Assembly (NCBI RefSeq): GCF_034263275.1
Contig: NZ_CP139559.1
Location: forward strand, 496,001-560,000
Length of the DNA stretch: 64,000 bases
Direction of reading: 5' to 3'
Origin: Mucilaginibacter sp. cycad4
GTDB lineage: Bacteria > Bacteroidota > Bacteroidia > Sphingobacteriales > Sphingobacteriaceae
Shown here: positions 3,968 to 22,897 of the stretch, piece by piece
Numbering within the stretch: position 1 is the stretch's first letter
Layout: every line of letters starts with the position of its first letter
Notes under the pieces: model-generated
The model's input: the letters and a program-made list of their open reading frames with translations, nothing else
Told to the model about the DNA's origin: nothing
Databases searched by the model: none
Position numbers and translations under genes: made by a program

Positions 3968-4041
3968 GGTCCTATAGCTCAGCTGGATAGAGCAACAGAT
4001 TTCTAATCTGTAGGTCTTTGGTTCGAATCCAAATGGGATCA
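3968..4041 (+). tRNA. tRNA-Arg(TCT)
   Basis: A full cloverleaf can be drawn: acceptor GGTCCTA/TGGGATC with two G-U pairs, D stem GCTC/GAGC, anticodon stem ACAGA/TCTGT with loop TTTCTAA giving anticodon TCT, and T arm TTTGG-TTCGAAT-CCAAA, with discriminator A. CCA is not encoded. The 3' part from 3990 is duplicated at 22699-22751, so this gene is the integration site of the island. Its 3' half now comes from the island and stays functional. Confidence 0.95.
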
Positions 4042-4042
4042 C
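3990..4042 (+). repeat. Left attachment repeat (att core, 53 bp) inside tRNA-Arg
   Basis: 53 bases, from the D-stem GAGC to two bases past the tRNA's paired 3' end, are identical to 22699-22751. Bases just outside differ on both sides (A versus T before, A versus T after). This is the expected product of tyrosine-integrase recombination in the 3' part of a tRNA gene. Confidence 0.93.
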
Positions 4043-7424: not shown

Positions 7425-7968
7425 GTAGCTGTGATAGTAGTTTATTATAACTCAGGTCTGATTGGCTTGTATCGTACACAAAAAGTGGCACGCTTAATTC
7501 CGTAGAGATTTCTTGTGCATAGTGCAATTCCATAGTTTGCATATAGGCTAAAGATTTTTCAGAGTATGTTTTTTCGTCCCGATTCTTTAGCCCATCTGCA
7601 ACCTTCGCCGTATCGCCGACAATTACAACGAGGTAAATCGGGTTGATGGCGGAGAAGGTTTTCAAAGGCACTTTCGTTGCAACCCCATCTTTATTGAATA
7701 AGCAAAAATGTCCGTCTAAAATATAGTGATGGTCATGGTTAACTACATTGTGTAACCCTCGTAATAATCTGTCTTGGGTGTCGGGGATATCACTTACTAA
7801 CTTGTTTTTGAAATCGGTATTGATATCCTTCCATTTCAAAACTTCGCTGGCAGAGAGGTAATTGATATTCAGAGCATTTACCAGCCTGTGGCAAATAGTA
7901 CTTTTGCCAACCCCATGTATTCCACCAACGAATATAATATTCTTGAATAATGTCGTTTTATTGTTCAC
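7408..7968 (-). CDS. P-loop kinase/ATPase, adenylate-kinase-like
   Basis: 186 residues. A Walker A motif GIHGVGKST lies at residues 16-24, YILDGHFCLF is a Walker-B-like segment, and a likely lid region is GLKNRDEKTYSE. The small size fits nucleoside/nucleotide or polynucleotide kinases better than AAA+ motors. It is the first gene of the four-gene operon and its end overlaps the PIN-GNAT start by 17 bases. Possible jobs are phosphorylating a nucleoside, an RNA end or the toxin itself; the sequence does not decide. Confidence 0.78.
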   Translation of the reverse strand: MNNKTTLFKNIIFVGGIHGVGKSTICHRLVNALNINYLSASEVLKWKDINTDFKNKLVSDIPDTQDRLLRGLHNVVNHDHHYILDGHFCLFNKDGVATKVPLKTFSAINPIYLVVIVGDTAKVADGLKNRDEKTYSEKSLAYMQTMELHYAQEISTELSVPLFVYDTSQSDLSYNKLLSQLHESLT

Positions 7969-8012
7969 AAATTGACCGATAAAATAAAGGTTGTTAAATA
8001 TATAATTATAAT

Positions 8013-8050
8013 ACTACTTGTTATATAAAATTGCTGTAATAGCAAGTAGT
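8013..8050. promoter_or_regulatory. Inverted repeat upstream of the kinase operon, possible operator
   Basis: ACTACTTG (8013-8020) is mirrored by CAAGTAGT (8043-8050), with a further TAT/ATA match after one mismatch. It lies 45 bases upstream of the kinase ATG, in AT-rich DNA where the promoter should be. It could be an operator or just a hairpin in the leader. Confidence 0.35.
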
Positions 8051-8181
8051 AATTAATGTGGACGAGTTTATGAATTATTCCAACAAAAAATTGAAAATAT
8101 TAGCTCTGATTGTCGGTTAAGCCCACCTGCCACCCCGTCGGTCGGGTAAATTATCCGTTTTTTATACTGAATTCTGTATAT

Positions 8182-8217
8182 GTTAATGATCCCCGCCAGG
8201 CGGCGGTGATCATTAAC
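8182..8217. repeat. Long hairpin in intergenic region
   Basis: GTTAATGATCcCCGCC pairs with GGCGGtGATCATTAAC around a 4-base loop: 15 pairs with one C/T mismatch. No T-tract follows on either strand. It lies between the unknown 107-residue gene and the kinase operon. It may be a processing or termination structure, or a small palindromic repeat element. The rest of 7969-8270 shows only the inverted repeat at 8013-8050. Confidence 0.6.
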
Positions 8218-8270
8218 GTCAATTAAAGTACTAAAAAGTACAGTTTTATACCATAATGGTACATATAATT

Positions 8271-8594
8271 TTAGTCCAAAGATTCAGGAAATATCACGTT
8301 ACCATAGCTATTTAACTCAATATCTAAATTTACAGTCCGGTGGATACGGTGCTTTAAATTCTTAAAATTTGATGCACTCCACTGCTTTCCGTTCAGCGTA
8401 CCACATAGGATATACGCCGCCGCATAGTCATCATTCGGGTCTGACATTAAGAACGTTTCTGTTATAGTAAAAAACGTCCGCCCCCTTTCAAGTTCAATGG
8501 TTTCTCCTAAAAACGGTAATTCCGCACACGTGTAGTGATAAAGTGAATCAAGATGCGCTATGCTGAATAACACAACTTTGAAATGGTTTTGCAT
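8271..8594 (-). CDS. Hypothetical protein, 107 residues
   Basis: I do not recognise this protein. It has no signal peptide or membrane segment. Phrases such as GETIELERGRTFFTITETFL look like a small beta-rich domain. It is third and last of three same-strand unknown genes (8271-9682), 67 bases after its neighbour. The ATG at 8594 is the only reasonable start. It lies between the kinase/PIN operon and the restriction operon, so a role in defence or element control is possible but unsupported. Confidence 0.55.
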   Translation of the reverse strand: MQNHFKVVLFSIAHLDSLYHYTCAELPFLGETIELERGRTFFTITETFLMSDPNDDYAAAYILCGTLNGKQWSASNFKNLKHRIHRTVNLDIELNSYGNVIFPESLD

Positions 8595-8661
8595 GACTTG
8601 TTTGTTGGTATCGCCTTTTGCAATGGCATGGTTTGTATAAACGTCACAAAACGAAGTTCGC

Positions 8662-9312
8662 TTACTTAAAAAGCCATTGAAGGAAATTTACGTTAGTTTT
8701 CTCTTGTTGTATTTTTTGCATACGGTTGAGATATTCAAAGTGCGATACTAATCCGCATTCCCGGTCAAAGTCATCCGGGCTGAAATGAATAACTTTAAAA
8801 TTGATATTGTTATTTTCAAGATTATAAGTCAGGTCACGTAATTCGCCGCTGTTTAACAGGAAATCATTTATTAATAAAACATTATCATCTGTAAAGGCAG
8901 CCAGTGACAAAAAACCACGGCGGCGATTAAAAACACGTCCTAAACTATTTAAAGGCTGGTTATCCTCATCCCATTCGGGTTTTATTTCATTCTCTCCCTT
9001 TGCGGTACAAAATCCGGTTAAATCCTTTTTTGTAGCAAATTTTAACAGATACTCAACTGTAGATAGTTCAATTCTTTTTTCTTGTTTGATAGGAGTTTCA
9101 GGAATAAGGTAGTCCATTTCATCATCATCATCTTCTTCGTATCTGATTTGGGGATTTTTATCAACTGCCAAAGCATGATAAATTGTTTTATTACGTTCGT
9201 AGTCCCAATGACTACTTGATGATACGATTTCGAAGCCGTCTCTAACAGCACTATTAACCAAGCGATTAAAATAATCAAAATCATCTTCGTTAATAATCAA
9301 GTGTTCTGCCAT
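8662..9312 (-). CDS. Hypothetical protein with acidic linker, 216 residues
   Basis: Not recognised. An N-terminal segment of about 55 residues is followed by a very acidic stretch (YEEDDDDEMDY, near residues 57-67), then a compact C-terminal domain with hydrophobic strands (GFLSLAAFTDDNVLLINDFL). No membrane segments or nuclease motif were seen. It starts 22 bases after the membrane-protein gene at 9335-9682, so the two are probably cotranscribed. Confidence 0.6.
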   Translation of the reverse strand: MAEHLIINEDDFDYFNRLVNSAVRDGFEIVSSSSHWDYERNKTIYHALAVDKNPQIRYEEDDDDEMDYLIPETPIKQEKRIELSTVEYLLKFATKKDLTGFCTAKGENEIKPEWDEDNQPLNSLGRVFNRRRGFLSLAAFTDDNVLLINDFLLNSGELRDLTYNLENNNINFKVIHFSPDDFDRECGLVSHFEYLNRMQKIQQEKTNVNFLQWLFK

Positions 9313-9334
9313 TACCCAACTCCTTACGTAACCC

Positions 9335-9682
9335 TTACCGATACATTAACCAATATTTATCACTTAATGATTTGGCTTCATTCAACGGGCGTTTTACCGG
9401 GTCAACAACTTTTTTAAATTCCCACTTTTCCTCAAACCGATTATATCTTCCATAACATTTTATATTTTGGAACATTTGTTCTCCATCTACAGTGCTGATA
9501 AGAGGTGGGTACTCGCTATCATATTCCCATTCTGTAAATTGAACTTTTGAATTTCTGTAGGCGATGTATGTTTTGATAATCAATACTACCACCATAACAA
9601 TACAGGCTATAATAAAACCGATAACATACATTATCGCAATAGTTATGGCTAACCCAACTACGTAAGAAATCAGCTTGTTCAT
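9335..9682 (-). CDS. Small membrane protein, 115 residues
   Basis: Residues about 5-37 are strongly hydrophobic (VVGLAITIAIMYVIGFIIA then CIVMVVVLIIKTY), enough for one long or two short membrane helices. A soluble C-terminal part of about 75 residues follows. No family recognised. It is first in a three-gene run read away from the XRE gene at 9783, and the shared upstream region has two inverted repeats. Confidence 0.6.
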   Translation of the reverse strand: MNKLISYVVGLAITIAIMYVIGFIIACIVMVVVLIIKTYIAYRNSKVQFTEWEYDSEYPPLISTVDGEQMFQNIKCYGRYNRFEEKWEFKKVVDPVKRPLNEAKSLSDKYWLMYR

Positions 9683-9690
9683 TTAAGTAA

Positions 9691-9747
9691 TTTGTAACAC
9701 TAAGTTACAAAACAAAAACGAGATTACCAATACCTGTGTTGGTATTG
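9691..9747. promoter_or_regulatory. Two inverted repeats in the divergent region before the XRE gene
   Basis: TTTGTAAC (9691-9698) mirrors GTTACAAA (9704-9711), and CAATACC (9728-9734) mirrors GGTATTG (9741-9747). Both lie between the divergent membrane-protein and XRE genes, where an XRE-type regulator would bind. The two palindromes differ, so they may be sites for different proteins. Confidence 0.4.
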
Positions 9748-9782
9748 CGAAGCTGATTAAACGGCAACCTTGTAGGTTGAAA

Positions 9783-10022
9783 ATGTCGGAAATCAAGAAA
9801 TCAGCCTTAGACCTCTATATAATTGAACGTGTGAAGCAAATGCGTCAAGATAGAAATATGTCGCAAGCTGTTTTGGCTATCAAATTGGATGTGTCAGATT
9901 CATTTATCGGCGCCATTGAAAACCCGCACCACCGGGCGAAGTATAATACGGAACACATCAATAAACTTGCTGTGATTTTTAATTGTAGCCCCCGTGATTT
10001 TTTACCTGAAAAACCGCTTTAA
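9783..10022 (+). CDS. XRE-family helix-turn-helix regulator
   Basis: 79 residues. The HTH runs through about residues 14-65: VKQMRQDRNMSQAVLAIKL, then DVSDSFIGAIENPHHRAKY, then INKLAVIFNCSPRDFL, a typical Cro/C1 fold. I chose the ATG at 9783 over the TTG two codons upstream. The gene ends 10 bases from the convergent hsdR stop and is divergent from the membrane-protein gene. Its size and position recall controller (C) proteins of restriction systems, but it could equally regulate the unknown genes on its other side. Confidence 0.85.
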   Translation: MSEIKKSALDLYIIERVKQMRQDRNMSQAVLAIKLDVSDSFIGAIENPHHRAKYNTEHINKLAVIFNCSPRDFLPEKPL

Positions 10023-10032
10023 CCGCTACCAA

Positions 10033-13000
10033 CTACCCGGCTTTATTCAAACTGTTGTAAACCTTTTTTAACATATAATCCTTTACCAACCCGCCAAAAT
10101 CTTTATCGTCCATCATCTTGGAAAATATATCTTGGTTTTGCTCCATACGGGAGATAAGTTTATCCATGAAGATGTCGTCAAAACCAAATTTAAAGTTCTC
10201 AATGGTGTTTGTTTTAGCCTGTAGGCTCAACTTGTTATCGGCGACCAACTCAGCTTCAATCTGGTCAAAGAAAAGCTTGTCAGCATCGTTAAATTCGGTT
10301 GAGAACCTTTTATTAAGCACTTCAATAATTTCTGATAGTGCCGCCTTTTCTTCTTTAGTCATGCGGATACCCGCTTCGTTTTGTCCATCCAAACCATATT
10401 CCGCTTGCGGCTCCATTACGATATTTATTTCGCTGATTCGCTGCAATCGGTAATACTCCAATGATACTTCGTCACCTAATTGAAAACGGTCGTTTGCGTT
10501 TCTTGGTAGTTTTTTAAGCAGGAATTTACCGTATGTAAAAAGTTTTTCCAACTCCACATCCGTAAAAGGCATAATTTGAGTTAGGAATGAATAAAGCCGC
10601 ACAAATGATTGAAGTGTATTTTTAAAGCCTTCCTGCGTTGATTCGGTATTGATAACATCATCCTTGCTGCTCTCAACTGGTAATTGCTTGTAGCGGTCAA
10701 CTGCCGGGTCAACGTAAGCGTATAACTTACCTTGCTCCGCTACTGATAAAGCCCTCGCCGACTTAAAATATACGTTACAAAAATTATCGACTTCGGTGTC
10801 CCAAATTATGTGCGCCTTTCTAATTTCATTCTGTAAGTCGTACAGGTGGTTCGGGTCGGTTGTGGTTTCAACTGTGGTCAGTTCGTAATACGGTTGAAAC
10901 GAATTTAGTATTTCTTCGGTCTCGTTAGCAAAGTCCAGTACAAAGGTATCATCCTTGCCGGCAGACATTCGATTTAACCGTGATAGTGTTTGCACGGCCT
11001 TAACGCCTGACAATTTCTTATCTACATACATCGTATGCAATAGTGGCTGGTCAAACCCGGTTTGGTATTTGTCTGCAACTAACAGTAATTGATATTCACT
11101 GGTATTAAATTTCTTCGGTAATTCTTTTTCCTTAAAGCCGTTCAGGTCAACCTCGGTAACACCATCCGGGAACATATCATAAATCACTTTACCCGAAAAT
11201 GCTACTAAGGTCTTTATATCATTATAGCCCTTTTTCTCGATATACTTATCAAATTCTTCTTTGTAGCGTACAGCATGTAACCGTGAACTGGTAACAACCA
11301 TCGCCTTCGCTTTCCCGCCAATTTTTTTTGATACAACTTGTCTAAAATGTTCAACCATTACTTCGGTCTTTTGGGCTAAGTTATGCGGGTGTAGTGATAA
11401 AAACCGGGCTATTGCTGTCGCTGCCTGCTTTTTATGTACGTCCGGGTCGTCATCAATCTGTTTGGATAGCTTGTAAAATGTTTTGTAGGTAGTGTAATTC
11501 TTTAATACATCCAAAATAAAACCTTCTTCAATGGCTTGCCGCATTGAATAAAGGTGAAAAGGCTTTGGTTTACCATTCTCATCAGGTGTACCGAAAACCT
11601 CTACCGTTTTAGCTTTTGGAGTGGCAGTGAAACCGAAAAAACTAAGGTTAGTTTGCCGTCCACGAGCTTGCATAGACTTCCTGATTTCATCTTCTACATC
11701 ATCGTCTAAACCTGTATAAATATCCTCCTGTTCAGCGTCTTCCAATGATTTTGCCGCTAATACTTCTTTTAGCTTTTTTGTCGATTCGCCCCCCTGACTG
11801 CTATGCGCTTCATCAATGATGACTGCGTACTTGCGATTAGACATCTCGCCAATTTTATCTAAAATGAATGGAAATTTTTGCAGGGTCGTGATAATGATAT
11901 TTGACCCAGCGGTTAAGGAATCGGCTAATTGCTGAGAATCTTTATCTATTTTTTGGACCACCCCCTGTTTGTGTTCAAACTGGTATATGGTGTTTTGTAG
12001 TTGGTTGTCCAGGACCTTCCTGTCGGTAATTACTATTACCGTATCAAAGATTCGTTCGTTAGCTTCGTTATGGATACTTGAAAGACGATAAGATAACCAA
12101 GCTATTGAATTTGATTTACCCGACCCAGCAGAGTGTTGGATAAGGTAGTTCTTACCCGCCCCCTCCGCACGGGCGTTTGCGCTCACCTGACGTACTACCT
12201 CCATTTGGTGATACCGTGGGAATACAATAGTTTCCTTTATTTTAGTAACACCATTAAATTCAAATTCTTCGGAACTCAGGTGAAGGAACTTACCGATAAT
12301 ATCCATCATGCTATCCTTCGCCCATACGTATTCCCAAAGGTAGGCGGTACGGTAACCATTATAGTTTGTAGGATTTCCCGCTCCGTTGTTGTTACCCTTG
12401 TTAAATGGTAGGTAACGGGTATGTTTACCATCCAATTTGGTGGTCATATAACATTCATCCGTATCGACGGCAAAGTGTACTAACGACCGTTTCTTAAATT
12501 GAAATATCGGTTCTGTCGGTTCACGGTCATACACGTATTGCTTTTTTGCGTGTGTAATGTCTTGCCCGGTAAACTGGTTTTTAAGCTCTATGGTGGCAAT
12601 TGGCAATCCATTGAGGGATAATACCATATCAATTGAGTTGCTGCCTCTACGCTCGTAAAACAGCTGCCGGGTGACTGATAATCTATTGGTTTTATACAAG
12701 ACCTCAGCATTAGGGTTAAGTGTAGATTCCGGCTTGAAGTAACCCAACCTAAATTTAACGCCGTAATCAATAAACCCGTTACGTATCACATCAAGTGTAC
12801 CCCGTAACTCCAATTCCTTTAATAAGCGTTGGATTACCTTTTTCTCGACTTCCGTTTTATGAATGCCTGAAATTTTAATCCATTCTTTAGGTTGCGACGC
12901 TTTTAGAAAGTCTGTGACGTAACCGGGGAACAAACCTAAGTTAACATCAAAATCATCTGAATTCCCTATGACGTAACCACCGTAAGTGAGTAGCGATTGC

Positions 13001-13047
13001 TCGATAGCTGCTTCAAAAGTTTTTTCTGTGTGTATCCCGCTTGCCAT
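10033..13047 (-). CDS. hsdR: Type I restriction enzyme R subunit (HsdR)
   Basis: 1004 residues, normal length for HsdR. The N-terminal PD-(D/E)XK nuclease has SIDMVLSLNG and IATIELKNQ (catalytic E and K near residue 154). The SF2 translocase has Walker A SAGSGKS (about 306), DEAH (about 411) and GFTATPK. The C-terminal helical part should bind the methylase core. Together with HsdM and HsdS it should translocate and cut unmethylated DNA in an ATP-dependent way. It is the last gene of a five-gene minus-strand operon, 5 bases after the DUF262 gene. No frameshift or lost motif was seen. Confidence 0.95.
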   Translation of the reverse strand: MASGIHTEKTFEAAIEQSLLTYGGYVIGNSDDFDVNLGLFPGYVTDFLKASQPKEWIKISGIHKTEVEKKVIQRLLKELELRGTLDVIRNGFIDYGVKFRLGYFKPESTLNPNAEVLYKTNRLSVTRQLFYERRGSNSIDMVLSLNGLPIATIELKNQFTGQDITHAKKQYVYDREPTEPIFQFKKRSLVHFAVDTDECYMTTKLDGKHTRYLPFNKGNNNGAGNPTNYNGYRTAYLWEYVWAKDSMMDIIGKFLHLSSEEFEFNGVTKIKETIVFPRYHQMEVVRQVSANARAEGAGKNYLIQHSAGSGKSNSIAWLSYRLSSIHNEANERIFDTVIVITDRKVLDNQLQNTIYQFEHKQGVVQKIDKDSQQLADSLTAGSNIIITTLQKFPFILDKIGEMSNRKYAVIIDEAHSSQGGESTKKLKEVLAAKSLEDAEQEDIYTGLDDDVEDEIRKSMQARGRQTNLSFFGFTATPKAKTVEVFGTPDENGKPKPFHLYSMRQAIEEGFILDVLKNYTTYKTFYKLSKQIDDDPDVHKKQAATAIARFLSLHPHNLAQKTEVMVEHFRQVVSKKIGGKAKAMVVTSSRLHAVRYKEEFDKYIEKKGYNDIKTLVAFSGKVIYDMFPDGVTEVDLNGFKEKELPKKFNTSEYQLLLVADKYQTGFDQPLLHTMYVDKKLSGVKAVQTLSRLNRMSAGKDDTFVLDFANETEEILNSFQPYYELTTVETTTDPNHLYDLQNEIRKAHIIWDTEVDNFCNVYFKSARALSVAEQGKLYAYVDPAVDRYKQLPVESSKDDVINTESTQEGFKNTLQSFVRLYSFLTQIMPFTDVELEKLFTYGKFLLKKLPRNANDRFQLGDEVSLEYYRLQRISEINIVMEPQAEYGLDGQNEAGIRMTKEEKAALSEIIEVLNKRFSTEFNDADKLFFDQIEAELVADNKLSLQAKTNTIENFKFGFDDIFMDKLISRMEQNQDIFSKMMDDKDFGGLVKDYMLKKVYNSLNKAG

Positions 13048-13052
13048 AACCG

Positions 13053-14876
13053 TTATAGTGAAAATTCATTGATTTTTTTCACATCCCAAATAAGCTTCGC
13101 TAATTCGAGATATACTGATTGCCGTTCTTTTATTACCGCTTTCTTAAAAGATGGTACGGCTACCATCTTTAATTTTCCAGCCTCAATGAATTTCAAAAAA
13201 TGTGGATTGTTTTTAAACGTCTTTTCGTTCAAAGATGCTGCAAGTAAGTTCTGACTGTAATATTTATCTAATTTCTTGTCGTAGTTGCTATCATTTAAAC
13301 TTCGGTTAATATCCTGTGGCAGCAATACTAAAGCGCCAAACATGTTTCTATGGTTTTGAAAACTTTCTTCGGATTCGTATTCGTCTTTATATCTTCTGTA
13401 GTGGTCAGAAATAACGTGTTCAATATCGTAAGGATTTTTTATCCAACGGTCGACATAAGTCTCAAATTTGGTGTCACGCCCGCTTTGTTTTTCAACGAAA
13501 TGCGTAAGCCTTGCTAATTGATGAAGCATGTATCGCTTTGTCCATCCATTTAAGTTAAAACTATTAATTCCGCTTAATTTGAACTCATAGTTAGCAATTT
13601 CCTTTGTGAGGAACTTTGATAAATCCGGCAACGTATTTCGCCGTACTTTTTTGGCGTAGGTAAACATCGCATAAGTCATGGCTGAGTAATCCAATGTTTT
13701 GAAATTGAAAATTCGGATTGAAATAAACTGGTCTAAAAAGCAAGATACTGTTCGGATTTTTTTATCAACTGTTTCCTTGCTATCAGTTGGAGTAATCGCA
13801 GCTAAAATTAATAAAGGCTGCAATGTAAAGTTTCGGTTAGCGTTGTAAAATACGTGTTCAAAGCCCGCAGTCAGATTGTTTGAATACCTAAATATCCGAA
13901 TATATGTATCAGCGAAAAGGATAAATTCCTTTTGAACAAATCTGTTGAAATCGTTTGACCTCTGTAAGCCTATGTGCAACGAATTTTCTCGCACCCATTT
14001 GTGAAAAGCGTTGCTGATTTTATCAAAGTCTCCTTGTTGTGCGTTCTTTTTGCGCTCTCTGATTGTAACGGCATATTGTGACCTCAACCAAGTTTTTATG
14101 CAATCACTTTCTTGTTCTTTTCCTAAAGCCTTTAATTCTAATATTTTGTTCTTCCAAAGTTCATTTGCTTTTTGCCTTTCATTATCATCTGCTATTTCCG
14201 ATAATAAATAGCCCTTTAACATTTCTGTTGCTGTTAAACTTAGCCCCCGGTCATTCATTGATACGAAAATCTTATGCGCATCCTGTTCTGTTTGGGCTTC
14301 AATACGAATAAATTGCACATTATCAATTATCCAATCTTTGAAGTAAGGCAATGCTTGTTCACTTACAGCATCAATCATTAAACTTTTTATATCATTGTAC
14401 CTATTCCAAATATTTTTTACGCTTTCCGGGCGGTTGTTCAATTCAAATTCTTTACCATCCAAGATGCTTTCTAAGCATTCATTCCTTTCTTCAACATTAA
14501 TATTGAATGTGGTTTTGCCGTATTTCTGCGAATGTATCAGGTTTAAAACTTCGGCTTTGTCATGTTCGTCTTTAAGATTTAAGGTCAGATAAATTAACAA
14601 TAAAGCTAAAGACGTAAGCCTTTGCTGACCGTCAATAATGGCATTTTCATCTTCGGTAAGTACAACAGACCCCATAAAGTAGTGACCATATTTTTCTACT
14701 TCCTGACGTTCGTGGTCGTCTGAATAATACTCTAAAAACTCTCCTGTGAGGTCTTCAATCAATTCTTCAATCTGCTTTCTTTCCCATTGATACTCACGTT
14801 GGTAGTAATGGATGCTATACTTTACACCAGTAAATAATTCTCTGATACTTTTAGGTGCGCCTAATATTTTTTTCAT
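13053..14876 (-). CDS. DUF262/DUF1524 protein, GmrSD-like
   Basis: 607 residues. The N-terminal DUF262 domain has YYQREYQWERKQIEELIEDL and the nucleotide-binding motif DGQQRLTSL (about residues 82-90). The C-terminal DUF1524 domain has the His-Me-finger pattern IEHVISDHY (about 486), then HRNMFGALVLLPQDINRSLN. This is the architecture of fused GmrSD, a type IV nuclease that attacks modified phage DNA, and of several other defence nucleases. It lies inside the type I operon, 9 bases after the PD-(D/E)XK-like gene. It may add attack on modified DNA; the specificity is unknown. Confidence 0.88.
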   Translation of the reverse strand: MKKILGAPKSIRELFTGVKYSIHYYQREYQWERKQIEELIEDLTGEFLEYYSDDHERQEVEKYGHYFMGSVVLTEDENAIIDGQQRLTSLALLLIYLTLNLKDEHDKAEVLNLIHSQKYGKTTFNINVEERNECLESILDGKEFELNNRPESVKNIWNRYNDIKSLMIDAVSEQALPYFKDWIIDNVQFIRIEAQTEQDAHKIFVSMNDRGLSLTATEMLKGYLLSEIADDNERQKANELWKNKILELKALGKEQESDCIKTWLRSQYAVTIRERKKNAQQGDFDKISNAFHKWVRENSLHIGLQRSNDFNRFVQKEFILFADTYIRIFRYSNNLTAGFEHVFYNANRNFTLQPLLILAAITPTDSKETVDKKIRTVSCFLDQFISIRIFNFKTLDYSAMTYAMFTYAKKVRRNTLPDLSKFLTKEIANYEFKLSGINSFNLNGWTKRYMLHQLARLTHFVEKQSGRDTKFETYVDRWIKNPYDIEHVISDHYRRYKDEYESEESFQNHRNMFGALVLLPQDINRSLNDSNYDKKLDKYYSQNLLAASLNEKTFKNNPHFLKFIEAGKLKMVAVPSFKKAVIKERQSVYLELAKLIWDVKKINEFSL

Positions 14877-14885
14877 TGTAAGGGT

Positions 14886-15521
14886 TTAGGAATTTGCGAT
14901 AAGTTTAAGGAAATAATATTTGTTTATTTGAGTCCAGTTGAAAGTATAATCCTTTAATAAGCTAATGTTGACAGGTTTGCCGCCGATAGGTGTGGTCTTT
15001 ACAACGCCTCCGATTATTGAGTAACCATGAGAAATATCGTAATCCCAATTTTTAGTTATTTTCTTTAAAGGGGATACCAAATTTTTCATGTCGGTCATAG
15101 TTAATTGAATACCTGATAAGTGACCCGCCCCTAAAGAATATTTTTCCAGTAAATGAATATCTTCATAAACGTCTTTCATAAAAAGGTCAGCACCACCACG
15201 CTTCTTACCTGACGAAGCAAGCGTTTTGTAGCATTTCATTTCGATAGGTAAATATTTAAACTCATTGTCTTTTTTCATAGAGATTAAAATGTCGACTTCT
15301 CTCCATCGTCCATCGACCGATATCCCGGTTTCAAGTTCAAGTGAAACCTTTTCGTCAGGGGCGTATATAATCAAATCAAACGCATTATTTAGGATATAGG
15401 CGAACTGCAACTGCATCGAAGCCTCTTTGTTTATATTTATTACGCCGCCACCAACTTTTGAAGTAAAGCTTATCCAACAGTCATCAATTAATCTGTAAAC
15501 ACGGTTGATAAGGTTAGTCAT
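14886..15521 (-). CDS. Predicted PD-(D/E)XK-like nuclease embedded in type I operon
   Basis: 211 residues, no family recognised with certainty. The segment REVDILISMKKDN followed by LPIEMKCYK has the spacing of a PD-(D/E)XK active site (D, then E-x-K), and an upstream Glu in SLELETGI could be the helix-1 residue. The start overlaps hsdS by 4 bases and the next gene is the DUF262 protein, so it is translated as part of the restriction operon. It might be an accessory nuclease or a specificity partner for the DUF262 protein. Nuclease assignment is inference from motifs. Confidence 0.62.
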   Translation of the reverse strand: MTNLINRVYRLIDDCWISFTSKVGGGVININKEASMQLQFAYILNNAFDLIIYAPDEKVSLELETGISVDGRWREVDILISMKKDNEFKYLPIEMKCYKTLASSGKKRGGADLFMKDVYEDIHLLEKYSLGAGHLSGIQLTMTDMKNLVSPLKKITKNWDYDISHGYSIIGGVVKTTPIGGKPVNISLLKDYTFNWTQINKYYFLKLIANS

Positions 15522-16789
15522 GAGAAAACATTTACTTCGTCCCTTATGTCAACCTTGCCAGTAACCACTTCTGATATTAATGCGGTTTTGTATTCTTTAA
15601 GATGTTCAACTTCTTTTTTTATCTTTTGCATTAATCTATCTATTCGGTAGCATTCTTGCGTTATAAATTCTCCAATTCTCCGCTGTTCATCATAATTAGG
15701 TACAGGTATTGACAAATTCTTAATTTTTTCGACCGCCAATCCCGGTTGCGCTGCTGATTGTGAATATTGATTCAAGTTCATTACGGTTAAAAGGTTGCCA
15801 AGCCAAATCCAATCATATTCTTTATTCAGATAACAAACAATAGCATGTTCAGATGCCCAAAATTTATTTGAGGCATAATTAATATTACCGCATAATGCAC
15901 CTTGCCTACCTATGAGGATATAATCACCATCCATGTTGTATCGCTCATAATAACCTCTCAACCCATTCCCTCCATATACTGGATAAGCACCTTCCTCGGT
16001 GATAAACTCGGATGTGATTGTATCTCCACTTTTTAGATTGGCAACATATTTAATTTTTTTTACTGTCCAATGCTCGGGTATTTCTCCTAACCACTCAACC
16101 CAGCTATTTATCATTTTTGTAGTTGAGTTTAGTCCCTTAGTGACTGATTGAGTAATAGTTGTTATACGCTCTTCATTAAGAAGTTGAAGGAGTTTTTCTT
16201 TGCCACCTATTAGTTTGTCTATTAACTCTGTTTTATGATTGAGATATTGAGAAATACTATGTTGTTCAGGAATTGATGGGCAAGGGAACTTAAACTCGTT
16301 AAAAACATTTTGATATAAATGCAATATGGTTGAGCCGCTTTTATTGTGGTTAATAAAAGATGTAAAAATATCTGACTGCAAAACCCAATAGAAAAAAGAT
16401 GTAATGTAATCTCCGCTAATTGGTCTTGTTACAAATACCCCACTATTTAAAGTTGCGATAGACGGGATATTTTTAACCAATGCAATTTTTCCAATAGTTC
16501 CGTCTTTGGTAATAAGCAAGTCGTTTTCCTTTAATTGGATGTAAGGGTCTTCGTCATACCTCGCTTTTGTAATTTGATAACAGGTTGTCCAATTAATTTG
16601 TCCATCATTGAAATCTGTACCGGTAACTACGTAACTGTCGCCAACTTCCAAAAATTCTTCCGACCGAAGACCTTGCCAACCAATTCTTCCTTTTACGTAG
16701 GTAGTATGCTTGACCTTTTTTAAAATCCAGTGTTGCGGAACTTCACCAATCCACTCAATTCCTGATTCTTTATAATTATACATTCCCAT
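15518..16789 (-). CDS. hsdS: Type I restriction enzyme specificity subunit (HsdS)
   Basis: 423 residues with two target-recognition domains. Each begins with the usual lead (WIGEVPQHWILKKVKH at about 12 and WLGEIPEHWTVKKIKY in the second half) and ends with a conserved helix (PSIPEQHSISQYL; YDEQRRIGEFI). The two TRDs should read the halves of a bipartite site. The start shares one base with the hsdM stop (TGATG), and the end overlaps the next gene by 4 bases. Both halves look intact, with no inverted second hsdS nearby that would allow phase switching. Confidence 0.95.
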   Translation of the reverse strand: MGMYNYKESGIEWIGEVPQHWILKKVKHTTYVKGRIGWQGLRSEEFLEVGDSYVVTGTDFNDGQINWTTCYQITKARYDEDPYIQLKENDLLITKDGTIGKIALVKNIPSIATLNSGVFVTRPISGDYITSFFYWVLQSDIFTSFINHNKSGSTILHLYQNVFNEFKFPCPSIPEQHSISQYLNHKTELIDKLIGGKEKLLQLLNEERITTITQSVTKGLNSTTKMINSWVEWLGEIPEHWTVKKIKYVANLKSGDTITSEFITEEGAYPVYGGNGLRGYYERYNMDGDYILIGRQGALCGNINYASNKFWASEHAIVCYLNKEYDWIWLGNLLTVMNLNQYSQSAAQPGLAVEKIKNLSIPVPNYDEQRRIGEFITQECYRIDRLMQKIKKEVEHLKEYKTALISEVVTGKVDIRDEVNVFS

Positions 16790-18507
16790 CAGGCAATTAC
16801 TTCGTTGATTAATCCCAAAGTTTCTTGCTCCAAGGCAATTATGTCACGCCTTATATCATCCAATGACCTCAACGGCTTATATTGGTAGAAGTATTTAGTA
16901 AAGTTAATTTCGTAACCAATTTTAGTTTTAGTTTCATCCACCCATGCATCCGGTACGTGAGGTAATACCTCTTTTTTTATGTAAGCTTCTATGTTTTCTT
17001 TCAACGGGATACTTTCTGTATCTCGTAAACTACTATCTGCTTTTGGTTTGCCGTTTTTGTCGGTTTTTATATTGCCTTTGGCATCCCTTTCAGGGCGTTC
17101 AACCGTAACTTTTGAATAGCCGAAGTCCCGGTTATCAAAAATTTTACTGATTTCGGTCGGTAAAAATTCGCCATACACCTTAGTGATTTCGGTAATGTGG
17201 TCAGGGCTTAATTCGTTACGTTTATCACCAAGAGATTTACTCATTTTTTTATAAAAGTCCACGGCATTAATTAGTTGTACTTTCCCCCGGCGATTAGCTG
17301 ACTTATGGTTGGATAGTATCCATATATAGGTACTTATGCCGGTATTATAAAACAATTGGTTAGGCAAGGCTATAATAGCTTCCAATAAGTCATTTTCTAT
17401 TATCCACTGCCGTATGCTTGATTCATTCTTCGTTGTACTTGGACTACCCGAAAACATTGGCGAACCGTTGAATACGATAGCCAGCCGTGAGCCTTCTGGC
17501 TTCATTTTTGATATAAGCGACATCAAGAACAGGAAAGACCCATCCCCGGAGGATGGCAACCCGGCACCAAACCTGCCGCCAAATCCTTTTTCTTCATGTT
17601 CAGCTTTTACCTTTTTAGCAATCTTTTCCCACTTAACACCAAACGGCGGGTTGGTAATCAGGTAATCAAATTTTTCAGTTGATAGGTGGTCATCAGATAT
17701 ACTATTACCCTTTTTTATATTAACCGGGTTTTGTCCTTTAATCAACATATCCGATTTACAGATAGCGTATGATTCCGGGTTTAACTCCTGACCAAACACT
17801 TCTAAACGGGCATCCGGGTTCAACTCATTCAGGTATTCTTCGGCAACGCTTAACATACCGCCCGTCCCGGCACAGCAATCGTATATGGTTTTTACGATAC
17901 CTTTTTGTGTAAGTATATCTCGGTCATTCAGGAAAAGCAGGTTAATCATTAACCGTATAACTTCACGTGGCGTAAAATGCTCACCAGCTGTCTCGTTTGA
18001 AATTTCAGCAAATTTGCGTATCAATTCTTCAAACAAGTAACCCATTTCCATGCTACTTACCTTTTTTGGGTGTAGGTCAATTTCCTGAAAACGTTTTACC
18101 ACCATAAATAACAGGTTGTTGTTATCCATGCGGGTAATTTGGTTTTCAAACTCAAATTGCTCAATTATCTCACGGGCATCGGCAGAAAACCCGTTTATGT
18201 ATTCGATAAGGTTGGCGGCAATGTTGTTAGGGTCAGCAACAAGTTTATCGAAAGTGAAATTGCTGCGGTTGTGAAAATTGTATCCGGCTACCTTATTTAG
18301 TATTGGGTCAATGTTCTGTATGTTCATGGTTTTAGCCTGTTCATACTTTTTAAGCACCTCAACTTTGGTGCCTTCCAGTACGCAATCTAAACGCCTCAGT
18401 ACCGTTAACGGTAGTATAACCTTGCCATAGTCACTTTGCTTATAATCGCCCCGGAGAAGGTCAGCTATTGACCATATAAAATTGGCAGTTTCCTTAAAGT
18501 TCTTCAT
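16789..18507 (-). CDS. hsdM: Type I restriction enzyme methyltransferase subunit (HsdM)
   Basis: 572 residues. An N-terminal helical domain (FIWSIADLLRGDYKQSDYGK) is followed by an N6-adenine methyltransferase domain with the SAM motif DCCAGTGGML and the catalytic NPPFG (about residues 286-290), plus GEHFTPREVIRLM. With HsdS it protects host DNA, and with HsdR it restricts. It is the first gene of the operon. About 270 bases separate it from the divergent primase-helicase gene, which should hold both promoters. Confidence 0.96.
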   Translation of the reverse strand: MKNFKETANFIWSIADLLRGDYKQSDYGKVILPLTVLRRLDCVLEGTKVEVLKKYEQAKTMNIQNIDPILNKVAGYNFHNRSNFTFDKLVADPNNIAANLIEYINGFSADAREIIEQFEFENQITRMDNNNLLFMVVKRFQEIDLHPKKVSSMEMGYLFEELIRKFAEISNETAGEHFTPREVIRLMINLLFLNDRDILTQKGIVKTIYDCCAGTGGMLSVAEEYLNELNPDARLEVFGQELNPESYAICKSDMLIKGQNPVNIKKGNSISDDHLSTEKFDYLITNPPFGVKWEKIAKKVKAEHEEKGFGGRFGAGLPSSGDGSFLFLMSLISKMKPEGSRLAIVFNGSPMFSGSPSTTKNESSIRQWIIENDLLEAIIALPNQLFYNTGISTYIWILSNHKSANRRGKVQLINAVDFYKKMSKSLGDKRNELSPDHITEITKVYGEFLPTEISKIFDNRDFGYSKVTVERPERDAKGNIKTDKNGKPKADSSLRDTESIPLKENIEAYIKKEVLPHVPDAWVDETKTKIGYEINFTKYFYQYKPLRSLDDIRRDIIALEQETLGLINEVIA

Positions 18508-18703
18508 GTTATTGCAATGATAGGGCTAAGTTCTTCTAAAACTACAAATTTGAATGTATTTGAAAATAAAAGTGGCAATTTTTTTTAAATGAATTATTTT
18601 TGTAATAAGAGAAATCAGCAATAATTCCGCTGGTAAACAAATCGAAAAAATACATCTTAAAGTATTAAAAGAGAGACGACTAATCGGGAAATAGTATTAC
18701 TAA

Positions 18704-18766
18704 GTTAAGTTCACTGAACTATTACCGCCGTCTTTCGCTTCATTGAAGCATTAAAGAGAACTTAAC
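18704..18766. promoter_or_regulatory. Inverted repeat upstream of the primase-helicase gene
   Basis: GTTAAGTTC (18704-18712) is mirrored by GAACTTAAC (18758-18766), with a smaller hairpin GCTTCATTGAAGC inside. It ends 16 bases before the primase-helicase start. A replication origin, an operator or a leader hairpin are all possible. The rest of 18508-18781 is AT-rich with no gene visible. Confidence 0.35.
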
Positions 18767-18781
18767 AACGATTTATGAATA

Positions 18782-21211
18782 GTGAATTTAATTTACTCCA
18801 CGAGTGAAAAGACTTTTCACGTAAAACCAACCGATGACGAGATAGCAAAACTTAAATTCTCACATTGCAAAACATCGGATGAAAAACTAATTGAATGTAT
18901 TGAGCGGGGACAACCATTTACCGCCCAAGTGTATGACCAAAACAAACGGCATACAAATAATTTTATAACGCAAACTATTTTTGCGCTTGACTTTGACGAG
19001 ACCATCACTCTAAACGAAGCAAACGATATTTGCCGGGATTTTGGTTTGAATTACCTTTTTGGCTATTACACCTATCGGCATACGGAGACTGACCCAAGAT
19101 TCCGTTTGGTATTTATTTGTGACGGTGAAGTGCGAGATTCACAACTTGCGTTAGATATTCTTCAAGCGTTCACTGTGGTTTTCAATGGTAAAAATGATAT
19201 TTCATGTTTGGACTTAGCAAGGGTTTGGTCGGGAACCAACAAAAAAGTATTCCGGGGAATTCCTGATTCAACTTTTAATCCTGCTCAATTATTTGAAATA
19301 GCTAACGAACTAAAATATGCCTTAGCTGGTGGTAGAAGTAGAAAAATTTTCAATTTTAATAATATTGAAAAAACGGGAAATAATGGTTATTCATCTTTAT
19401 ATACTTATAGGATTACCGAGATTCCCCCTTTTTTCGTCGAACCTAAGACAGGCGGCGATTTAATTGATAATTGGAAGATGGAAGACCTATTGAAATGTAG
19501 GTTATTCAAAACTTTTTACGAAGGCGGGGGTACTCCTGATTTAGGTTCCAAACTTAACGACCGGGAATTACTATGTATGGCATCCAACTTAATAACTATT
19601 GTTGGCGGTGAGAAATTGTACAAGACCTGTTTAGACAGAAACCCCGAATATGCTAAGGTTAAGCGGTATAAAATTTCATGGTTACGCAATCAGGGAAATT
19701 ATCGACCTTGCTTAATTGGCAATTACTCACCTTACAAGGAAGACCAAGATAATCCCGACCAAACGTTTGCTGAATTGCTTAGAAAACGAGGGCGTGTTGA
19801 GATTGACCCATCATATCAAGTTGATATGCTTACGCTGCCGAAAGCCGAAGCTAAGCTATTAAAGGCGAACGAGCGGATACGCACCGAAAAAGGGAACAAG
19901 GTATATTTGGTTAAAGTACCGCCGGGGCTTGGTAAAACTTCTTATTGGAGAAATCAAAAAAGTGTAGTAATCGGCTTTCCAAGCAACAAGTTGAAAGATG
20001 AACACTATACGGCATCGAACTTAGATAATGATGAAAAAGTTGTTACGCCGGAAGCATTAGTTAATTTTAGCGCACCGGTAAAAGCACACTTTAATAGGTT
20101 ATATCAAACAGGTTTAGGTGAGGTAGTTAGTTTTCTGATTAAGGACTTGGCAAAGGGCTATTCAATATTTGAGAGTGGCATTGCTGATGCTAACGATATA
20201 GTTTGTGCATCGGAATATCTTGTTAAAAATAAATTAATCAGGGATGTTAATGCAGACTTAACCGTATTCACTACCCACACAAGGATGGTTTACCAATCTT
20301 TCCCGCATGATACCTATGTATTTGATGAAAATACTTTTGGTTCATTGTTTGAACAGTTGACAACTACTGTTAGTGACGTTTCGATAGTGGTAAACGAGTT
20401 AAAGCTTAGGGGATTAGATACCAGCGTATGGGAGGATGTTTTAACTATTAAAGATTCAAACATCCACGGCACCCCCAACTTTGGTGATTATCATTTCATT
20501 TTAAAGCAGATAGTCCGGGCAAATCATTTCAACAGTAACGTACTTAAATTTTTTCAATCGTCAACTTTTTCATTTCAAGAGGGGTACATACACTACCAAG
20601 TTAATCATCTGAGTAAGCTGCCAACCGATAAAAAAATAATTTTTTTAGATGCGACCGCTTCAAAAACCTTATTTGAAAAAGTATTTGGGGATAGGCTGGA
20701 AGTTATTGATATATCTAACGTTCAATTACAGGGGACTATCATACAATACACTTCCAAAAGTTGCTCTAAAAGTGGACTTAGCAAGTACCACGAAAAAATT
20801 TCAACAATGGTCGGCGATTCACCTGTTATCACATTTAACGAATATAAAAAGTACTTCAAAAATCCTGATGATACGCTACACTTTGGTAACGCTGTCGGCT
20901 CAAATAAATTAGAAGGGAAAGATTTTTGTGTAGTTGGCACGATGACTTACCCGCCGATGTATTATAAGTTTTTAGCTGATACACTAATGATTGAGTGCGA
21001 TAATTTTGAAACAGAACCTTTAAAAGTAACCTATAAAGGTCGCCGATTCTCTTTCAAAACGTTCGCCAATCCTGAATTACAAAAGCTGCACTTGGAACAA
21101 GTGGAGGGAGATTCATTACAATGCGTTCACCGGGGGCGTTTGATAAGAACTAACTCAACGGTACGGCTGTTTTCAAATTTCCCGTTGTTGCAGGCTAAGT
21201 ATATTTACTAA
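18782..21211 (+). CDS. Primase-helicase replication protein of the island
   Basis: 809 residues, GTG start; a stop lies just upstream in frame, so it cannot be longer. The N-terminal part has FALDFDET (about residue 67) and FRLVFICDG, resembling archaeo-eukaryotic-type primase motifs. The C-terminal part is an SF2-like helicase with Walker A PPGLGKTS, a B-like motif VFDENTFG, FLDATASKT and a motif VI QCVHRGRLIRT. Such proteins start replication of phages, satellites and integrative elements. It is divergent from hsdM and followed by the integrase end. The helicase call is firm, the primase call moderate. Confidence 0.72.
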   Translation: MNLIYSTSEKTFHVKPTDDEIAKLKFSHCKTSDEKLIECIERGQPFTAQVYDQNKRHTNNFITQTIFALDFDETITLNEANDICRDFGLNYLFGYYTYRHTETDPRFRLVFICDGEVRDSQLALDILQAFTVVFNGKNDISCLDLARVWSGTNKKVFRGIPDSTFNPAQLFEIANELKYALAGGRSRKIFNFNNIEKTGNNGYSSLYTYRITEIPPFFVEPKTGGDLIDNWKMEDLLKCRLFKTFYEGGGTPDLGSKLNDRELLCMASNLITIVGGEKLYKTCLDRNPEYAKVKRYKISWLRNQGNYRPCLIGNYSPYKEDQDNPDQTFAELLRKRGRVEIDPSYQVDMLTLPKAEAKLLKANERIRTEKGNKVYLVKVPPGLGKTSYWRNQKSVVIGFPSNKLKDEHYTASNLDNDEKVVTPEALVNFSAPVKAHFNRLYQTGLGEVVSFLIKDLAKGYSIFESGIADANDIVCASEYLVKNKLIRDVNADLTVFTTHTRMVYQSFPHDTYVFDENTFGSLFEQLTTTVSDVSIVVNELKLRGLDTSVWEDVLTIKDSNIHGTPNFGDYHFILKQIVRANHFNSNVLKFFQSSTFSFQEGYIHYQVNHLSKLPTDKKIIFLDATASKTLFEKVFGDRLEVIDISNVQLQGTIIQYTSKSCSKSGLSKYHEKISTMVGDSPVITFNEYKKYFKNPDDTLHFGNAVGSNKLEGKDFCVVGTMTYPPMYYKFLADTLMIECDNFETEPLKVTYKGRRFSFKTFANPELQKLHLEQVEGDSLQCVHRGRLIRTNSTVRLFSNFPLLQAKYIY

Positions 21212-21224
21212 GCAGTACAAGTAA

Positions 21225-21260
21225 GCCCTATTGTCATTAATTAATTGCGGGCAATAGGGC
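21225..21260 (+). terminator. Hairpin after the primase-helicase gene
   Basis: GCCCTATTG (21225-21233) pairs with CAATAGGGC (21252-21260) over an 18-base loop. It starts 13 bases after the stop, but there is no T-tract, so it is a weak terminator candidate. Confidence 0.4.
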
Positions 21261-21395
21261 ATTATTGTGAAGGCTTAATTTTTTCACAAAATTTGCGTAA
21301 AAAAATTTTTACCGACTCTCAAAATTTTACAAAAACGGTCATGTTTTGAAAAAGTCAAATTCAGGGTTCGGCGGTAGATTCGATTGTCTTGGATA

Positions 21396-21475
21396 GTCCC
21401 AAATGGGGACCACCCGGCCCGGGCCCGCCCCGGAGAGTAACGGGATACTGTGTGGGGGGCTTTCGGGGGAGGTAA
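21396..21475. other. GC-rich, structured non-coding segment before the integrase 3' end
   Basis: GTCCC (21396-21400) pairs with GGGAC (21406-21410). A stretch made almost only of C and G (21411-21433), with a CGGGCCCG-type palindrome, follows, then G-rich runs to 21475. The surrounding island is AT-rich. No ORF is visible. It may be a structured RNA, an origin-type element or a strong pause between two converging genes. Confidence 0.45.
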
Positions 21476-22624
21476 TTAAACTAACTCTAATACTGGTAAC
21501 ACATCCTTTAATTGTTGGCTGTTCAATTCACCTAAACCCCGTAGATACTTCAACGTCACTATCATTGTTGAATGCCCTAAAAGTTGTTGTAGTATGTGAA
21601 TGTCCTTAGTGCGATTATACACATCAATGGCAGCGGTATGGCGAAAAGAATAAATGGTTTGCTCTGATTGTATCAAACCATTTTTGCTCATATCAGACTT
21701 TAGGCGTGTCCATATCAGGTTAAAATAGTATTCGTTAAAAGCATGATTACTTAACGTAAATATATTTGTTTCGGGGTCTTGTACTTTCGATAATCTATTT
21801 TCAATAATAGTTTGAAGATATTTGGGGACTGATACCACCCTTACACGAGCGCTTTTATTCTCTGCACCGGATAACGAAATGGTTGAGAAATCATCATTAA
21901 AGTGCCGTTTTTTTAATAATCTGATTTCAATATGTGGGCGTAACATGCAGCTATACGATAACAAACAACACAAGTATAAGTCGGGATTTGATTTTTTAAG
22001 ATAGTCCAGCAGGGGAATTAATTGTTCTTTTGTATAAATCTTGTGAAGGGCAGCTTTCGGTTTTAAGCGTGGAGTATTTAGAATCAAATTAACCGTGATG
22101 TATTTTTTCCTTTCAAATTCGGCAAAGAATAATCCCAACATCCTACGGATATTCATGTAGTTGGTCGCAGACGATTTGAACTGATTGAGAAAGGTCTCAA
22201 TTCTGCTAAGCTTTAGTGATTGAAGTGGACTACATTTTTCTTCTGTACTTAAAAATGCTAAAAACTGCTTTACGATGGATTTTATGTTTCTCTTATACTT
22301 ATCGGATAAAGGGCTGGATAGCTTTGTTGCTTCAACTTCTAAAAATAGTTGTTCAAGAGATGGTATTGGTTCTGCATTAATTTCAATAATTGGCTCATCA
22401 ACTATTAAAGGATTCCAGCCTGTTTCCAGTGACTTTTTAAATTCAAATAACAATTGCCTTAGCAACCTGTCTTTCTCCTTTATAGATGATGCGTAGTTTG
22501 GATAAATCTTAATTTTCAAACGGTTACCGTTGTACTCCCTGAATCTTTTTCCATTAAAGTGAAAAGAGATGTGAGAACGATAAGATAAGTTGGGTTTAGT
22601 AACAATTTTTGGCTCAGTGTACAT
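21476..22624 (-). CDS. Tyrosine recombinase (island integrase)
   Basis: 382 residues, normal length. The catalytic domain has Arg in CMLRPHIEIRLL (about 229), YSFRHTAA (R about 328, H 329), LLGHSTMIVTLKYL (His, and the nucleophilic Tyr about 360). The N-terminal SAM-like part precedes it. It should catalyse integration and excision at tRNA-Arg. The start is 75 bases from the right att repeat, with iterons between the two, as expected for an att-int module. It is not closely similar to the integrase remnant at 4304-4539. Confidence 0.93.
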   Translation of the reverse strand: MYTEPKIVTKPNLSYRSHISFHFNGKRFREYNGNRLKIKIYPNYASSIKEKDRLLRQLLFEFKKSLETGWNPLIVDEPIIEINAEPIPSLEQLFLEVEATKLSSPLSDKYKRNIKSIVKQFLAFLSTEEKCSPLQSLKLSRIETFLNQFKSSATNYMNIRRMLGLFFAEFERKKYITVNLILNTPRLKPKAALHKIYTKEQLIPLLDYLKKSNPDLYLCCLLSYSCMLRPHIEIRLLKKRHFNDDFSTISLSGAENKSARVRVVSVPKYLQTIIENRLSKVQDPETNIFTLSNHAFNEYYFNLIWTRLKSDMSKNGLIQSEQTIYSFRHTAAIDVYNRTKDIHILQQLLGHSTMIVTLKYLRGLGELNSQQLKDVLPVLELV

Positions 22625-22629
22625 TGATT

Positions 22630-22653
22630 TGGCGCATTAAGTGGCGCACTTGT
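22630..22653 (+). repeat. Two 12-bp iterons (right end)
   Basis: TGGCGCATTAAG and TGGCGCACTTGT, adjacent 12-base units, match the left-end iterons at 4206-4229 in sequence, order and orientation. They begin 6 bases upstream of the integrase ATG, so they may serve both as arm sites and as an operator for integrase expression. Confidence 0.68.
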
Positions 22654-22674
22654 ACCCGAATAAGAAAAAAACCG

Positions 22675-22750
22675 CCTCAGTTAGCTCATTTAGACGTTGA
22701 GCAACAGATTTCTAATCTGTAGGTCTTTGGTTCGAATCCAAATGGGATCA
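22675..22750 (+). pseudogene. Degenerate tRNA-Arg copy at right end
   Basis: Besides the 53-bp 3' part, the segment before it still has TAGCTCA and a D-stem GCTC (22684-22687) that pairs with GAGC (22699-22702). The D loop (ATTTAGACGTT) lacks the usual GG, and the 5' acceptor half (CCTCAGT) does not pair with TGGGATC. It is unlikely to be a working tRNA. The 5' half seems to come from the island side. Confidence 0.6.
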
Positions 22751-22751
22751 C
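22699..22751 (+). repeat. Right attachment repeat (att core, 53 bp)
   Basis: Identical over 53 bases to 3990-4042 inside the tRNA-Arg gene. This copy is the original chromosomal 3' end of the tRNA, followed directly by its terminator at 22761. Confidence 0.93.
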
Positions 22752-22760
22752 TATTATATA

Positions 22761-22789: not shown

Positions 22790-22897
22790 GTTGCGTTTAT
22801 CGCCTTTTTCTCCAGCAGGTACAGTTTTTCATTCTGTTAGTTGAGATTCTGTCAGTGGTTTGGGTTTACTTTCTGTTTCGTGTTTTATCTGTTTAGG

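Follow-up and report, generated by a model that had tools for sequence, protein, structure and literature searches.

What are two nuclease-like genes doing between hsdS and hsdR of a type I restriction operon? The question is raised by a 64,000-nucleotide (nt) stretch of the Mucilaginibacter sp. cycad4 genome, here called the window, within which all coordinates are given and in which hsdM and hsdS are followed by an open reading frame (ORF) named ORF3, a GmrSD-like DUF262/DUF1524 gene and hsdR. The answer favored here, with a probability of about 0.7, is that a complete type I operon uses its hsdS-hsdR interval as a cargo slot, now occupied by two independent, putative defence nucleases. The N-terminal DUF262 domain would sense modification on invading DNA and, with a nucleoside triphosphate, activate the His-Me (HNH) nuclease at the C-terminus; the protein would act on phages that modified bases shield from the type I enzyme. 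ORF3 would contribute a small PD-(D/E)XK nuclease encoded on the same transcript. What the slot offers would be joint expression and joint transfer rather than physical guidance by HsdS/HsdM.

The operon and its two embedded proteins

By ORF reading, all five genes lie on the minus strand in the order hsdM-hsdS-ORF3-DUF262/DUF1524-hsdR (Table 1). hsdM and hsdS overlap by 1 nt and hsdS and ORF3 by 4 nt; the DUF262 gene is set off from ORF3 by 9 nt and from hsdR by 5 nt. The layout given in the initial annotation, with gaps of at most 9 bases or overlaps, is accurate. The extra genes may be translated together with the methylase complex, as was also proposed there, a suggestion drawn from the spacing only. 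The block is no chance reading, because all five genes come up again in operons of this type in relatives. The hsd genes appear undamaged: DCCAGTG at 210 and NPPF at 286 are found in HsdM, a D140...ELK nuclease motif and DEAH at 412 in HsdR, and hsdM, hsdS and hsdR, with the catalytic and motor motifs expected of a type I system, are all present. An HsdM query finds one match in its own genome. A small helix-turn-helix gene (9777-10022), convergent with hsdR and ending 10 nt from it, is a possible regulator.

Table 1. Positions of the operon genes and of the features at the tRNA-Arg locus (aa, amino acids).
Feature	Position	Strand	Support
hsdM, type I N6-adenine methyltransferase subunit, 572 aa	16789..18507	-	Pfam N6_Mtase 1e-59 and HsdM_N; PADLOC MTase_I 1.6e-265
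hsdS, specificity subunit, 423 aa	15518..16789	-	Pfam Methylase_S 1e-36, two stretches
ORF3, PD-(D/E)XK-like protein, 211 aa	14886..15521	-	motif residues and AlphaFold2 model
GmrSD-like DUF262 + DUF1524 single-chain protein, 607 aa	13053..14876	-	Pfam GmrSD_N and GmrSD_C
hsdR, restriction/translocase subunit, 1004 aa	10033..13047	-	Pfam HSDR_N, SWI2_SNF2, ResIII; EcoR124 HsdR 2w00 match 5.7e-15
Primase/helicase-like gene, 809 aa, divergent from hsdM	18782..21211	+	PHROG primase 0.00032 (weak); no Pfam match
Tyrosine integrase, 382 aa, beside second att copy	21476..22624	-	Pfam Phage_integrase 4.5e-10; PHROG integrase 8.6e-27
tRNA-Arg (TCT), probable integration site	3968..4042	+	first att copy formed by the 53 nt at its 3' end (3990-4042)
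Second att copy, perfect 53-nt repeat of tRNA-Arg 3' end	22699..22751	+	repeat search; 18,709 nt away; two copies in window

The 607-aa protein combines the domains and motifs of a GmrSD-family type IV restriction enzyme and is a putative member of that family. Its matches to PF03235 (GmrSD_N, 7.8e-33) and PF07510 (GmrSD_C, 4.5e-08) both exceed the Pfam gathering scores, the D82-GQQR86 motif is present in 18 of 18 aligned rows, the window among them, and the EH motif of the His-Me DUF1524 domain in 15 of the 18, again including the window; it is missing in L128-L130, whose C-termini diverge. The DUF262 proteins of related loci L052, L064, L069 and L098 are 72-74% identical to it, and in the PDB it matches the DUF262 protein 9jfl_B (1.6e-08). 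PADLOC matches it to HEC-06/Orf5 (PDLC04154, 3.6e-32; PDLC04157, 3.3e-29, residues 9-547). HEC-06, Orf5 and BrxU-type GmrSD proteins likewise hold DUF262 and DUF1524 in one chain (PMC12707154), but in the window the gene is hosted by a type I locus rather than by Hma or BREX, and the best HEC-06 stretch covers residues 10-271 only.

ORF3 is harder to place. It matches no family in Pfam, NCBIfam, PADLOC or PHROGs at an expectation value (E) ≤ 0.01; curated PD-(D/E)XK families give no match (HSDR_N_2 reaches 0.061 for one of eight members), and a PDB profile search with the ORF3 alignment returns chance-level rows, the best at E 0.13. No description of the family was found in the open-licence PubMed Central (PMC) literature, a set that leaves out most subscription papers and bioRxiv. 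The name PD-(D/E)XK-like is drawn from motif and topology rather than from a fold search alone. In an alignment of eight rows from two phyla, with 22-44% identity to the window protein, E33, Q37, E64, D77, E94 and K96 are invariant. The AlphaFold2 model predicts a pair of helices and then three strands, followed by one more helix, a further strand and weaker strands; E64, D77 and E94/K96 sit on its three strands, with D77 on 72-84 and E94/K96 on 87-97. Alignment and model together place D...ExK on adjacent core strands, the pattern expected of a PD-(D/E)XK enzyme. In VIA-align, the model pairs with BamHI at Z 7.7 (root-mean-square deviation (rmsd) 3.8, 135 aligned), EcoRV at 7.1 (4.0, 111) and OkrAI at 6.9 (3.8, 133). 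The list mixes many restriction-endonuclease-like rows with the unrelated folds Rep15, ILF3 and cGAS and is therefore, taken alone, no proof of the fold.

ORF3 might instead lack nuclease function and be a passenger that has decayed or that regulates, as the missing family match and the low to moderate fold confidence would allow. This is distinctly unlikely: E33, E64, D77, E94 and K96 are held across all eight rows despite their divergence, and the frame is open in five of five embedded copies. Both labels of the initial annotation are supported, "GmrSD-like DUF262/DUF1524" by GmrSD_N and GmrSD_C with DGQQR and EH, and "PD-(D/E)XK-like" by the invariant residues and the moderate AlphaFold2 model.

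Cargo and turnover in related operons

If the hsdS-hsdR interval is a slot, relatives should fill it as well. Among the best 80 of at least 568 confirmed hsdM loci, 21 that a script read as lacking a complete M-S-R set were dropped, leaving 59 operons; cargo was taken as same-strand ORFs of at least 100 aa, which excludes minus-strand ORFs (e.g., in L077 and L078). The hsdS-hsdR interval holds cargo in 45 of the 59, the hsdM-hsdS interval in 24, and neither interval in 9; the survey for the same insertion that was suggested initially finds each of the two genes again in operons of relatives. hsdS-hsdR intervals longer than 200 nt (n = 47) have a median coding density of 0.94, with 73 of 124 consecutive gaps at ≤30 nt. 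No description of such a count for this hsdM lineage was found in the same open-licence PMC literature.

The cargo is varied. The 99 ORFs of both intervals fall into 52 clusters, and a Pfam scan of 10 cluster representatives, hence a sample of the families, matched eight: Schlafen-AlbA (twice), PDDEXK_3, PDDEXK_4, DUF4268, NACHT, DUF1016/YhcG and DUF1643. DUF262 is also among the slot cargo of relatives, and PADLOC lists candidate defence genes for three cargo kinds (PDC-S26, PDC-S11 and PDC-S02). PDC-S02 (DUF1016/YhcG) and PDC-S26 (PDDEXK_4) resemble ORF3 as small nuclease-like genes in the same operon slots, but none of the eight ORF3 family members matches a PADLOC 2.0.0 model at E ≤ 1. Small PD-(D/E)XK proteins, ORF3 included, are cargo in at least 12 of the 59 operons, as counted by membership of clusters whose representatives only were scanned. 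The biggest hsdS-hsdR cluster comprises 10 ORFs of 325-368 aa (in L085, L102, L103, L106, L109, L114, L115, L118, L119 and L121); its representative, L085:13701-14714, has no Pfam or PADLOC match. Small ORFs of 84 and 87 aa lie just ahead of ORF3 or the DUF262 gene in two loci (L065:14023-14277 and L098:13543-13806).

The two genes of the window come and go in this slot. ORF3 is embedded in five operons: that of the window, L064 and L065 (both from the hsdM loci), L134 and L141. DUF262 accompanies it in two of the five, the window and L064, where the gene order is reversed; L065, L134 and L141 have ORF3 without DUF262, and L052, L069 and L098 have DUF262 without ORF3. On a quick hsdM tree of 62 rows (LG+G4), whose change counts cannot separate gain from loss, the DUF262 clade needs 5 changes for 5 carriers, ORF3 4 changes for 5 carriers; the presence of any cargo needs 7 changes in the hsdS-hsdR interval and 20 in the hsdM-hsdS interval. 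The nearest row, L048 (HsdM 93% and HsdR 88% identity), has neither ORF3 nor DUF262 and carries a PDDEXK_4 protein between hsdM and hsdS. Of 14 related operons compared with the window, 12 have an HsdS of 28-35% identity.

Could DUF262 have arrived together with hsdR? In blastn, the two align as one block with L052, L069 and L098. However, hsdR tracks hsdM: the window HsdR is 88% identical to that of L048 and 78-80% to those of DUF262 carriers. Joint inheritance alone does not fit, because the closest hsdR, in L048, comes without DUF262 and the tree needs five changes for five carriers; this route was rejected.

A closer bond between the two genes would resemble that of TgvAB, a pair embedded in the hsd cluster of Vibrio cholerae VPI-2 that gave protection against Tevenvirinae (PMC11411939). 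As in that cluster, a DUF262/DUF1524 protein is encoded within a type I operon that two added genes bring to five, and ORF3 and DUF262 are adjacent in both the window and L064. It is nevertheless very improbable that they form one two-gene system of this kind. TgvA and TgvB are both DUF262 proteins and both needed (PMC11411939), whereas the window has one single-chain protein and an unrelated ORF3 without a DUF262 match in Pfam; moreover, the order is reversed in L064 and the genes part company in six other operons. The extra genes do not hold as a functional pair, and this candidate was rejected. Unlinking in relatives, which the initial annotation had named as counting against its proposal, is what is seen for ORF3 and DUF262 as a pair. 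It does not apply to the slot, since cargo in general occupies this site across the hsdM lineage.

Probable independence from the type I complex and published counterparts

Both genes also occur away from hsd operons. The DUF262 gene has homologues in 24 plasmid records: 20 are 32-40% identical over 80-100% of the query (from Rhodococcus, Synechocystis, Aeromonas, Pantoea, Deinococcus, Lacticaseibacillus, Companilactobacillus, Klebsiella and Escherichia), and the remaining four, from Streptomyces, are ~26% identical. Eleven of the 24 contexts were viewed in a PLSDB gene table that is incomplete by its own description; an annotated hsd gene is absent from eight, including L017, which shows one gene side only. 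A Deinococcus radiophilus plasmid has the DUF262 gene overlapping hsdS by 4 nt; on an Aeromonas media plasmid it precedes SNF2-like, DUF4391, ATP-binding and DNA-methyltransferase genes; and in an unannotated Aeromonas caviae plasmid stretch, ORFs with hsdS-like and hsdR-like matches lie near it. In a sample of 400 genomes of the order, the gene is found in 26 at E ≤ 1e-10, the source genome included, the others at ≤36% identity; seven of these contexts (L127-L133) comprise one hsdM-DUF262-hsdS arrangement (L132), one adjoining hsdM/hsdS (L131) and five without an hsd match. Because so many homologue contexts lack hsd genes, the enzyme type appears independent of the hsd operon.

ORF3 occurs in three genomes of the order sample (its own, G008 and G395) and in 5 of 395 genomes of a phylum sample (its own, G008, G592, G596 and a weak match in G731, which the context script did not recover). 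Three of the four clear matches besides the window lie outside hsd operons, and only that of G596 (L141) is embedded. Eight plasmid records have homologues at 42-47% identity, seven over most of the length; the four contexts viewed contain no annotated hsd genes, and one holds a truncated copy. Phage records yield no relative at E ≤ 0.01, and the viral_contigs set yields two, L134 between hsdS and hsdR and L135 elsewhere. The unembedded position of three of the four clear matches in the order and phylum samples counts against an obligate tie to the type I machinery. L134, on a contig catalogued as viral, is a complete hsdM-hsdS-ORF3-DUF1643-Schlafen-hsdR operon.

These contexts bear on the other proposal for the extra genes, that they use HsdS/HsdM as a guide: ORF3, and perhaps the DUF262 protein, would bind the HsdM2S methylase complex and cut or nick at HsdS-chosen sites, or would be triggered by inhibition of the type I enzyme. 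The recurrence of small PD-(D/E)XK cargo would suit such a role, and PrrC provides a precedent as a type I-embedded sensor of EcoPrrI inhibition (PMC12707154). HsdS itself could hint at a link. With domain borders set by hand and proteins ≤350 aa and loci L009, L012, L131 and L132 excluded, the first target recognition domain (TRD1) of the window HsdS is common to L065 (73%), L134 (76%) and L071, and TRD2 is not (16% in L065, 19% in L134). TRD1 is thus common to two of the four other ORF3 carriers versus 1 of 61 non-carriers, though a differing TRD2 lies between; L071 has TRD1 without ORF3, and L064 and L141 have ORF3 without TRD1. This weak lead is offset by the count being post hoc, small and uncorrected for relatedness. 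TgvAB without hsdMSR protected E. coli; against several phages this protection was 10- to 100-fold weaker, a drop for which stoichiometry is the explanation suggested by the authors. With the HsdR nuclease mutated, the cluster still protected to a similar degree (PMC11411939). Guidance by HsdS/HsdM is unlikely and is not supported, because homologues of both genes occur without neighboring hsd genes in most stretches viewed. In a broader version, which is quite improbable, ORF3 and the other small PD-(D/E)XK cargo would serve the type I machine as exchangeable accessory nucleases that HsdM2S recruits or unleashes; if true, one specificity complex would drive several effector nucleases.

The rlo genes are reportedly the subject of Miller et al. 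2005, and embedded defences are said to be covered by Payne et al. 2024. The anticodon nucleases PrrC and RloC are embedded proteins with ATPase and anticodon-nuclease domains; ORF3 has no Pfam match and the 607-aa protein matches GmrSD_N and GmrSD_C only. The arrangement in the window is of a known kind: TgvAB, RloF, DarTG2 and PrrC have been published as embedded in type I operons (PMC11411939, PMC4619093, PMC12255303, PMC12707154). In Campylobacter jejuni, the DUF262 protein RloF lies between hsdS and hsdR (PMC4619093, PMC11411939), the same place as in the window, a likeness of position and domain; the cited parts of these two papers mention no ORF3-like partner. Machnicka et al. report that no other kind of defence element is as common in the vicinity of GmrSD homologues as type I restriction-modification systems (PMC4619093). 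DarTG2, a foreign defence module, is found between hsdS and hsdR in the enteropathogenic E. coli (EPEC) RRDM island, at a site that the authors regard as a potential recombination hotspot; that cargo is a toxin-antitoxin pair with the regulator RptR (PMC12255303), whereas the cargo in the window is nuclease-like. Against this background, the idea that one operon could cut both unmethylated DNA (type I) and modified phage DNA (type IV) stands in part: the TgvAB precedent (PMC11411939) and the matching DUF262 domains and motifs favor it, with type IV activity of the window protein predicted from sequence and analogy.

The probable tRNA-Arg island and the weight of the evidence

The operon probably rides an integrase-bearing island of ~18.7 kb (4043-22751) bounded by the tRNA-Arg repeats (Table 1). 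A 25-nt repeat (92%) near both island ends (4206-4230 and 22630-22654) may represent integrase arm-binding sites. In three genomes, G326, G792 and G789, the left flank is kept at 84-85%, exactly up to the tRNA end, and seven stretches fetched from them show no match to 4044-22681. In each of the three, the tRNA-Arg 3' end is present in additional copies of 43-49 nt, widely spaced along the same contig; other elements therefore probably use the site, which suggests successive elements in the genus. G326, in which ~87 bases of the right flank (22757-22843) directly follow the tRNA, was considered as an unoccupied site and rejected, as the match ends there; another tRNA-end copy ~87 kb away also counts against it. 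A longer right flank (23560-27160, 81%) is found in G789, ~11 kb past its last tRNA-end copy. Elsewhere on the island, the 809-aa primase/helicase-like protein has its stronger PHROG match (1.9e-14) to a family of unknown function, and a cluster at 4579-7968 encodes an ASCH protein, a 316-aa protein, a PIN-like PDC-M11A protein (a candidate defence gene at 5904-7424, PADLOC 6.8e-205) and a small AAA/kinase-like protein.

Several observations weigh against a cargo slot with two independent nucleases on a mobile island. A clean empty integration site was not found in G326, G792 or G789. The ORF3 model is of moderate confidence (mean predicted local distance difference test 63.4, predicted template modeling score 0.62); its VIA-align Z scores are all below 8, the tool's stated background, with the unrelated Rep15 tied at 7.6 (rmsd 4.3, 142 aligned), and Foldseek with this model returned nothing at E ≤ 0.001. 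In the 607-aa protein, the residue following G in the DUF1524 motif is A, instead of the N or D of the four closest embedded homologues. The TRD1 count gives a naive hypergeometric value of 0.0085, post hoc and with kinship ignored. Finally, a scan for TTTG-N18-22-TANNTTTG, taken here to be the Bacteroidota-type promoter pattern, gave one match in the window (59526) and none in the operon, versus 3.54 expected by chance, and sigma-70-type sites within 9700-18900 numbered 14 versus 27.4 in shuffles; both scans are uninformative on a single transcript and leave room for internal promoters.

The lineage numbers presented here add to the published picture of type I operons as platforms for embedded defence genes, with many families of cargo. 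ORF3 is the newest part: a testable, nuclease-like candidate family without a PADLOC match that sits in five operons and occurs by itself on plasmids. Should ORF3 protect alone, it would add a new defence made up of a single gene; should it depend on HsdM2S, type I complexes would be able to drive added effectors.

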